Source: an uncultured Bacteroidota bacterium (GTDB lineage: Bacteria; Bacteroidota; Bacteroidia; Flavobacteriales; Flavobacteriaceae). Taken from it: DNA of 54,518 nt. The position numbers and the translations under genes are program-made. The stretch lies in the NCBI GenBank assembly GCA_902594485.1, contig CACJMJ010000002.1:1-54518 (forward strand), written 5' to 3'. Shown here piece by piece: positions 49,143 through 53,994 of this stretch (position 1 is the first letter of the stretch; every line of letters begins with the position of its first letter). The notes beneath the pieces were generated by a model. It ran no database searches. It saw only the letters and a program-made list of their open reading frames with translations, and was not told the origin of the DNA.

Positions 49143-50039
49143 TTGAAAAAGATTGCTGCTATTGATATTGGATCCAATGCTATTAGAATGTTAATTTGCT
49201 ATGTGATAAAATCAGGAAATCAACAAATATTTCAAAAAAATTCTTACCTAAGACTGCCTCTAAGACTTGGAGAAGATACTTTTAGAGATGGCATAATCTC
49301 AGATAATAAGATTAAAACACTTTCTGAAGCACTTATCTCATTTAAATATATGATGAGAGTCCACAACGTTGATGAATATCAAATATATGCCACCTCGGCT
49401 CTAAGAGAGTCTAAAAATTCATTAAATGTAATTTCAGAGGTTGAAGAAACATCGGGTTTAAAAATTAATTTAATTAATGGTCTAAAAGAAGCTAAAATTA
49501 TAGCCAAAGGAAATCCATTATCTAAATTAGAATTTAACAAGACTTATTTGTATGTTGACGTTGGAGGGGGGAGTACCGAATACTCTATTTTAAGAAGAGG
49601 CGTAGATAAAAAATCTAAATCATTCAAAATAGGAACAGTGAGGCTTTTAAATAATAAAATAGATGACTCAACCATAGGTGAAATAGAGAAATGGTTAAAA
49701 TCAAATATTGACCAAAACGATAAAGTCAAGTTGTTTGCAACTGGTGGAAATATTAATAAAATACAGACAATGACAGGCACTAAATCAGGCAAACCAATTT
49801 CATATCTTTCTATAAAAGATCTATTTAACAAAATTATTCCATATAGCTTCAAAGAAAGAATGATTAAGTATAATCTAAATCCTGATAGAGCTGATGTAAT
49901 AGTGCCAGCATTAAAAATATTTATCTTGACTATGGATTCAGTAAGATCTAATAAGATTTTTATTCCAAAGCTAGGTCTCGTTGATGGAATGATTAAAGAG
50001 ATCTTTTATAAGAAAAATGGATATAAACTAAATCCTTAG
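49143..50039 (+). CDS. ppx: Ppx/GppA exopolyphosphatase (TTG start)
   Basis: AAIDIGSNAIRMLI; YVDVGGGSTEYS; pairs with ppk1. Confidence 0.92.
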   Translation: MKKIAAIDIGSNAIRMLICYVIKSGNQQIFQKNSYLRLPLRLGEDTFRDGIISDNKIKTLSEALISFKYMMRVHNVDEYQIYATSALRESKNSLNVISEVEETSGLKINLINGLKEAKIIAKGNPLSKLEFNKTYLYVDVGGGSTEYSILRRGVDKKSKSFKIGTVRLLNNKIDDSTIGEIEKWLKSNIDQNDKVKLFATGGNINKIQTMTGTKSGKPISYLSIKDLFNKIIPYSFKERMIKYNLNPDRADVIVPALKIFILTMDSVRSNKIFIPKLGLVDGMIKEIFYKKNGYKLNP

Positions 50040-51637
50040 CTTAAACTCATCAATTAAATAGCTTATACTATTGTTGCCATCTTGAATAATTTTAAGCTTT
50101 TCTTTACTATCTAAAAATATCTTTTTATCTGTGTCCTCAGATAATCTAATATCAATAGCTAAAGAATAATTATTAAGTTCTTTTGATATAAATGTTTGTA
50201 TTCTGCTCTTATACTCTTTGATTTCTTTAAAATTCATCTTATTAATTGTGTTAATAATAATGATATTATTATTGATAGATGGTAGGTTCATATTTAACAA
50301 TGAGAGAATATTATTGTTACCTTTAACTCTTTCAGATTCACAGAACTTTTTCCACGCTATTTGAAAATCATTCTCAGTAAAATCATCTTTTGGAAGCTCT
50401 AAACGTATGTCATTAGTTTCATCTTCAACAGACTTTTTAAAACTTAGACTTGCTATAGATAATGATGAAACATCTTTTTTTATAGGTTGGTTAAATAATT
50501 TTGCAGAATCTTTTGATTCAACAACTTCGATGTCAGGTATTATATCTTGAATGCTATTTATTAACTCAGTAGTCTTAATTAAAGACTTTTTTTTTTAATG
50601 CTATCTAAAGATGCTAATTTCATTAAACAGAGTTCAAGATGTATTCTTTTGTCATTAACTTTTTTATAATTGATTAAAGTATCATTAATAACTTCTATCA
50701 TTGATATTAAATCATTATTTGATATATCTTTCGAATGCTCTAAATACTTTTTGCTTAAATCGTTTTTGTAATCTGAAAGTTTATCAGATGAATTTAGACT
50801 ATAGATAAGTAACTCTCTTAAATGCTTTGATAATCCATTCAAAAAATTTAAATCATCAAATCCTTTAATATATACATCATTATATAGATTAAGAATACCT
50901 GGAATGTCTTTTTTATAAATCAATTCTGATATTTTAAAATATGTATTAAAGTCCAGAACATTTAGATTTGATGTTACTTCACTAATAGTAAGATTTGAAT
51001 CAGTGAAACTAACTAACCTGTCAAAGATTGATAAAGAATCTCTAATTGATCCATCAGATCTTTCAGCAATTAATGAGAGGGAACCATCTTCATATTTAAC
51101 CTTTTTTTCTTTACATATTTTTGATAATAGTTTTATAATAGATTCATTCTCAACTTTTTTAAAATCATAGATTTGACATCTTGACAAAATTGTGGGTAAA
51201 ATTTTATTTTTTTCTGTAGTTGCAAGTATAAAAACAACATGCTCAGGTGGTTCCTCTAAAGATTTGAGAAACGCATTAAATGCTTGATTAGACAGCATAT
51301 GAACTTCATCTATTATATAGACTTTATATCTTCCAGTTTGAGGAGGTATTCTAATTTGATCGGTTATATTTCGTATATCTTCTACTGAATTATTCGAAGC
51401 AGCATCTAATTCAAAAATATTATACTCAAAGTCATCGTCTAAATTGTTAATTGTTTTTGCAAGAATTCTAGCACATGATGTTTTACCAACCCCTCTAGGC
51501 CCACAAAAAAGTAAAGCTTGAGGTATATTATCATTTTTTATTGCATTATTCAATGTCTTCACAATCGCATCTTGACCTATCATATCATTAAAGTCTTTAG
51601 GCCTATATTCTGAAGCAGATGAAGTTGAATTAATCAT
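50028..51637 (-). CDS. dnaX: DNA polymerase III subunit gamma/tau; 0-frame product 50579-51637 (352 aa), -1 frameshift/slippage product extends to 50028 (about 536 aa)
   Basis: EYRPKDFNDMIGQDAIVKTL, CGPRGVGKTSCARILAKTI, DEVHMLSNQAFNAFLKSLEEPPEH; the -1 frame after A10 is open (KSLIKTTELINSIQD...FTENDFQIAWKKFCESERVK...LIDEFKLRI). Confidence 0.93.
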
Positions 51638-51720: not shown

Positions 51721-51722
51721 CT

Positions 51723-52007
51723 AAGCAAGCCTTCTTATCGCTGATTATTCAGAGGAAAGTCCGGACACCAAAGAGCAATGTAGCGGGTAACACCCGTCAT
51801 CTGTAATGGATAGGAATAGTGCAACAGAAAGTATGTACAGGTAATGCTGTAGTGGAATCTTGTAAACTCTACATGGTGAAACGCCAAGTATATCTACAGT
51901 TTAAAACTGCTCGTTTTATGTAGAAGGGTAGGCGGTATGAATGTAATAGTAATATTACATCTAGATAAATGATAAGACTAGACAGAATCCGGCTTATAGG
52001 CTTGCTT
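51723..52007 (+). ncRNA. rnpB: RNase P RNA (bacterial class A)
   Basis: GAGGAAAGTCCGGACACC near the 5' end, ACAGAATCCGGCTTATAGGCTTGCTT at the 3' end; termini AAGCAAGCC/GGCTTGCTT pair as P1; followed by a T run. Confidence 0.96.
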
Positions 52008-52539
52008 TTTTTATAAAGCTTAAAATCGAACTTCCATATTTCCTTTCATCAATATTATTATTTTTTTCTATTAAAGAAATATTTGAACTATGTTCGATAA
52101 TTATTTCCCCATTTTCAAATAGAAGATCTCTTTGCTTAATAATATTTATCAAATCAAGGTATTGATCCATTGAGAAATTATAAGGTGGATCCAAAAAAAT
52201 GATATCAAAATTTTCGTTAGTATTTAGTAAAAAGTCTTTAGAATTATTTTTTTTTGTAACAATATCAAATCCATGTTTTATTGCGGTATCACTAATAAAC
52301 TTTATACACTTAAAGTTATTATCAACTGAAAATATCTTCTTACATCCTCTTGAAGAAAATTCATATGATATATTTCCTGTGCCTGCAAATAAGTCTAAAA
52401 CTTTAAGTTCATCAATTATAAACTTATTTGATAATATATTAAACAGAGATTCTTTTACTTTGTCAGTAGTGGGCCTACTTGGAAGATCTTTTGGAGCCCT
52501 AATTAATATACTCTTTTTAGTCCCTGATATTATCCGCAT
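51994..52539 (-). CDS. rsmD: 16S rRNA (guanine966-N2)-methyltransferase
   Basis: MRIISGTKKSILIRAPKDLPSRPTTDKVKESLFNIL; DLFAGTGNISYE; IIFLDPPYN. ATG at 52539 preferred. Confidence 0.95.
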   Translation of the reverse strand: MRIISGTKKSILIRAPKDLPSRPTTDKVKESLFNILSNKFIIDELKVLDLFAGTGNISYEFSSRGCKKIFSVDNNFKCIKFISDTAIKHGFDIVTKKNNSKDFLLNTNENFDIIFLDPPYNFSMDQYLDLINIIKQRDLLFENGEIIIEHSSNISLIEKNNNIDERKYGSSILSFIKKASL

Positions 52540-53903: not shown

Positions 53904-53994
53904 CTTTGGTATTATTTTGATTTAAACAAATCTACAATTTTTTTTTTTTCGTTAAACAATATATAAATGAATTATATTAGAAAAATATTTATAA

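Follow-up and report, generated by a model that had tools for sequence, protein, structure and literature searches.

A conserved A-run at the gamma/tau junction of Bacteroidota dnaX is a probable site of transcriptional slippage at which the tau reading phase toggles

In this uncultured marine Flavobacteriaceae bacterium, dnaX, a clamp-loader gene of DNA polymerase, reads in frame only into the short gamma product, and the C-terminal part of tau lies in another frame behind a run of ten A's. Is the run a programmed slip site, or is the interrupted frame an error or the remnant of a decayed gene? We addressed this question in the window, by which we mean the whole 54,518-nt stretch of DNA that was analysed (contig 2 of an 860-kb assembly in 42 contigs, estimated to be 58% complete). 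On the minus strand, the junction reads AGC ATT AAA AAA AAA AGT CTT TAA, continuing from A10 onward as GTCTTTAATTAAGACT, and the gamma product ends KKKSL-stop. The part upstream of the run corresponds to DnaX domains I-III and matches the first half of PRK14971, the Bacteroidota gamma/tau model, with E 1e-138. The -1 (= +2) frame stays open from the run for 186 codons, to 50028, and the tail encoded there matches positions 474-612 of 614 of the same model (E 7e-15). Past the run, the two non-tau frames stop after 2 and 3 codons, the +1 frame within 3. The sequence, the open reading frames and the profile matches thus bear out the geometry and coordinates of the original prediction, in which a 352-aa gamma is read in frame and tau is reached through the -1 frame (Table 1).

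Table 1. Features at the dnaX junction of the window, with the evidence for each.
Feature	Position	Strand	Evidence
dnaX gamma ORF, 352 aa (AAA+ ATPase, lid, domain III)	50579..51637	-	TIGR02397 374 bits; PF12169 over cut-off
Putative slip site (A10), gamma/tau junction, at codon 347	50587..50596	-	Sequence; at least ten A's at the same place in relatives
TAA closing gamma in the unslipped frame, two codons past A10	50579..50581	-	Sequence
tau-specific C-terminal extension, -1 (+2) frame, ~186 codons, TAG at 50028-50030	50028..50588	-	PRK14971; omega
Small hairpin AGTCTT-TAATT-AAGACT just after the run, 6 bp, no spacer	50571..50587	-	Folding

The surroundings of the gene agree with this layout. 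The tau frame ends 12 bp inside the convergent ppx gene (49143-50039), whereas taking the gamma stop at 50579 as the gene end would leave a convergent gap of ~540 nt, as had been pointed out before. In a homopolymer scan of the whole window, the dnaX A10 was the only run of at least ten within a gene. The A8 runs inside other ORFs keep their frames, which had also been claimed, and so does an A9 run in the rsmD-like ORF. The longest run of the window, a T12 (A12 on the minus strand) at 53938-53949, is intergenic and lies beyond 53903. Between dnaX and the rsmD-like ORF there is an RNase P RNA (RF00010, 201.6 bits; 51722-52012, plus strand), which overlaps the 3' end of that ORF (51994) by ~19 bp on the opposite strand.

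Because homopolymers are error-prone and the assembly is an incomplete draft, one possible explanation is that the genome really carries A11 (or A8) and a single ORF, or that the gene has decayed and tau is lost. However, three other species (L003, L004 and L005; 93-95% identity) carry the identical A10 and the identical frame offset, and a whole other genus of the family (g129) is in the same inverted state, with tau out of frame in 10/10 loci. The tau tail is moreover under purifying selection in out-of-frame species. Its omega was 0.17-0.35 between the window and the three nearest species and 0.10-0.35 between the window and other out-of-frame species, compared with 0.22-0.23 for pairs of in-frame species; the out-of-frame tail is thus selected as a protein in its own frame. 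Since the same A10 and offset recur in three species and the tail is under selection, we regard the frame offset as genuine and a sequencing error as very unlikely, in agreement with the earlier argument against a simple error. For error and decay taken together, we retain only a very small probability.

The original prediction proposed to check the A-run in an alignment of dnaX from sister genomes. From 25 genomes of the genus, which include single-cell and metagenome assemblies of uncultured marine Bacteroidetes and the 'Cryomorphaceae bacterium MED-G11' group, we obtained dnaX from 22, and a run of A10-A12, mostly A11, was present at the same codon in 22/22, with the offset of the window in the three nearest species. 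A wider sample of 147 loci from other Flavobacteriaceae genera contained A10-A13 in 142 and A9 in three; the run of L059 is only A8. At L136 (genome G044), tau is out of frame and only A4 stands at the junction (CTCTCCATTTCGTGGAAAAGTAAGG); there the run seems to have been lost while the frame offset remained, or the assembly is wrong. Taken over the family, at least ten A's occurred at the junction in 164/169 loci, and away from the junction, 213 kb of coding sequence from these genes contained zero runs of that length. AAA/AAG usage ruled out a demand for lysines in the protein as the only reason for the run: lysine codons elsewhere in these genes are AAA in 75% of cases, and the probability of the all-AAA runs by codon choice alone has a log10 of about -47 when relatedness is ignored.

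The run extends well beyond the family. Runs of at least nine were found at the junction in 33/38 loci from other families of the order, in 14/14 at the level of the class and in 23/36 at that of the phylum. It is missing from a number of other lineages at phylum level, many of which are rich in GC, and from some members of the order with tiny genomes. In one 0.6-Mb endosymbiont-like genome (G291, locus L290), the C-terminal part of dnaX comes to lie in +1 through an A11, and in L288 and L289, from the same genus, dnaX reads through without a long run.

The original prediction called the logic of the window inverted; among relatives, however, the run does not go with one frame, and the majority of other genera have tau in frame. 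Within the genus, 8 species have tau in frame and 14 have it in the +2 frame (n = 22); in the other genera it is in frame in 127/147 loci, +2 in 16 and +1 in 3. Parsimony on trees requires at least 5 switches of the tau frame among 29 species around the genus, and at least 18 for the family sample. Phase changes confined to a single tip may include assembly errors, but those common to several species cannot easily be explained in this way. Part of the lengthening of the run went through substitution at its edge with the frame kept (L006 A10-g versus L007 A11). In 22/22 loci of the genus and in 84% of those of other genera, each of the two wrong frames meets a stop codon within 5 codons, compared with 28% and 16%, respectively, at control positions in the tau tail; any slip would therefore yield either a gamma-sized protein or tau. 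Judging from these relatives, the 'inverted' arrangement is one of the settings between which a switch toggles.

From these patterns, we consider it likely that A10 is a programmed site of RNA-polymerase slippage, through which dnaX yields both gamma and tau irrespective of the genomic phase. RNA polymerase would slip on the ten template T's and produce mRNAs with varying numbers of A. Unslipped and +3n messages would give gamma, ending KKKSL-stop, and those that had gained one A (or lost two) would join the tau tail frame and give tau of ~61 kDa, while the remaining register would again give a gamma-like protein. The genomic phase corresponds to gamma in the lineage of the window and usually to tau elsewhere in the family, and the same products would be expected from both. 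We infer that the slippage takes place at transcription rather than on the ribosome, and likewise the ratio of the products and the need for both. We prefer transcriptional slippage because ten and not seven A's are kept, because the phase drifts, because some lineages need a shift other than the -1 ribosomal one and because no spaced downstream stimulator is conserved. The three +1 lineages could not be served by a -1 ribosomal shift, although each of them rests on a single assembly and could be an assembly error. For the ribosome, seven A's are enough; the conservation of ten therefore fits a 9-10 bp RNA-DNA hybrid. Slippage by bacterial RNA polymerase is known to be efficient on 9 consecutive A or T (PMC5009743, PMC1088944).

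Under programmed -1 ribosomal frameshifting, by contrast, the mRNA would be uniformly A10 and tau would arise from it on the ribosome, which would be the E. coli dnaX mechanism in inverted form. A_AAA_AAA stands in phase in the gamma frame, and some -1 ribosomal shifting is possible there. A shift of -1 is just what nearly all out-of-frame lineages require (30/33 out-of-frame loci lie in the direction that such a shift would also serve), and in the window as well as the three species nearest to it, the run is followed immediately by a small hairpin (-5.4 kcal/mol in L002, L003 and L005 and -4.3 in L004). This hairpin, however, lacks a spacer, and in the remaining 18/22 genus-mates it is weak, of another form or missing, so that we rejected it as a general frameshift stimulator; it is probably not a functional stimulator. 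The E. coli heptamer was claimed for this site by the original prediction, and the string AAAAAAG is indeed present, but it is out of phase, being split AA-AAA-AG in the gamma frame; with zero-frame codons AAA AAA AAA AGT, A_AAA_AAG was rejected as the slip site. No Shine-Dalgarno-like purine stretch was found ~10 nt upstream of the run in the window (ATCTTTAGATAGCATT), and the Rfam dnaX element gave no match. Together with tau in the +1 frame in three lineages and the conservation of ten A's instead of seven, these observations make ribosomal frameshifting as the source of tau unlikely, if still worth keeping in mind.

Replication slippage could also act on the DNA itself, varying the run length between cells and switching tau on or off in subpopulations. 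In favour of such phase variation, homopolymers mutate readily, and the phase did toggle during evolution. Yet the run length is tightly held at 10-11, some lengthening by edge substitution keeps the frame, as in the L006 and L007 pair, and the tau C-terminus, which links polymerase and helicase in well-studied replisomes, is expected to be necessary in every cell. To this explanation we assign even less probability than to error or decay.

A further structure was seen in the relatives of the window. In other genera of the family, the 26 nt up to the run had a mean folding energy of about -7 to -8 kcal/mol, with 86% at -4 or below, compared with about -0.5 to -3.5 kcal/mol at other positions. 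The typical stem, CTCTATCA-CTTT-TGATGGAG-A10, lies flush 5' of the run. This stem-loop is conserved with compensatory changes in other Flavobacteriaceae (e.g., L102, L190, L036 and L059). When synonymous codons were permuted between species in each column, the energy rose from -7.3 to -5.3 (sd 0.19) and 0/200 permutations reached the observed value, relatedness being ignored. In a fixed 8-bp geometry, again ignoring relatedness, we counted 417 standard pairs versus 378 in shuffles (sd 7.5) and 60 two-sided changes versus 40 (sd 5). The GGAG that precedes the run in other genera is less likely to be a Shine-Dalgarno sequence, because the hairpin persists without it, as in L080 (TTCAATTT...AAATTGAA) and L094 (CATCATT...AATGATG). 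In the genus of the window, only 1/22 loci fold at -4 or below and the window itself at -2.1 kcal/mol; the flush upstream hairpin has been lost in this genus.

Annotation pipelines can call such a dnaX gene truncated or split it into two genes, while both halves look functional. The relatives offer natural comparisons between two species of unlike phase, or with and without the hairpin, by which the determinants of the gamma:tau ratio and the need for gamma in the phylum become directly testable. Our results support the idea that recoding sites can persist over very long times even as the direction in which they recode drifts.

The window shares with E. coli dnaX the gene, the junction, the two products and a poly-A-rich slip site. 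It differs from it in having neither the in-phase A_AAA_AAG nor a Shine-Dalgarno-like stimulator nor, apparently, a conserved, spaced downstream stem-loop, and in the reversed roles of the shifted and unshifted products. Another related case is Thermus thermophilus dnaX, for which transcriptional slippage was measured (Larsen et al. 2000, as presented in PMC1088944 and PMC5009743). According to these papers, the Thermus gene also has an A-run at the gamma/tau junction, stops close by in both other frames and two products from slipped and unslipped mRNA, the last being for the window a proposal from sequence. Thermus, as described there, has A9 and tau as a single ORF, whereas the window has A10, gamma as the unslipped product and tau in +2; the uninterrupted tau ORF is found in 127/147 other-genera loci and not in the window.

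The 'inverted logic' emphasized in the original prediction is present in the window but had been described before. Antonov et al. 2013 (PMC3711429) gave 17 two-ORF dnaX genes from 12 genera, nine of them with 10 A's, and proposed transcriptional slippage, a finding repeated in the review PMC5009743. As in the window, the gamma ORF comes first in those genes, tau is in the -1 frame and a poly-A of 7-10 A stands at the junction; conserved coding downstream of the shift is likewise seen in the window (omega 0.17-0.35). What our analysis adds to that study is phase toggling within a genus and a family, quantified stops, selection and the phylum-wide spread. The dnaX of the window is thus a genuine instance, spread across the phylum, of a mechanism already described for Thermus and a small number of other bacteria. 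Two results go beyond those papers: the phase changes as mapped over the clade and, in relatives, the hairpin flush with the run, which is apparently undescribed; in the literature searched, we found no description of such a hairpin for dnaX or Bacteroidota, a weak negative as subscription papers were largely outside the search.

The nearest counterpart of this hairpin is in the Roseiflexus IS630 element, in which a stem-loop directly 5' of the slip motif stimulates transcriptional slippage (PMC5009743). The relatives, not the window, have an inverted-repeat stem-loop in the same position (~86% of other genera). The Roseiflexus element slips on T5C5 with one deletion only, whereas the dnaX motif is a homopolymer and the genus of the window is without the stem. 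Putting these systems together, we lean slightly towards regarding Bacteroidota dnaX as a phase-indifferent transcriptional switch, in which slippage on A9-A12 would be efficient enough to make the tau phase nearly neutral, with at least 18 toggles in Flavobacteriaceae. In most of the family, a conserved nascent-RNA hairpin flush against A10 would tune the slippage, joining the Thermus homopolymer to the Roseiflexus stem-loop, and the genus of the window would have lost the hairpin and carry mostly A11.
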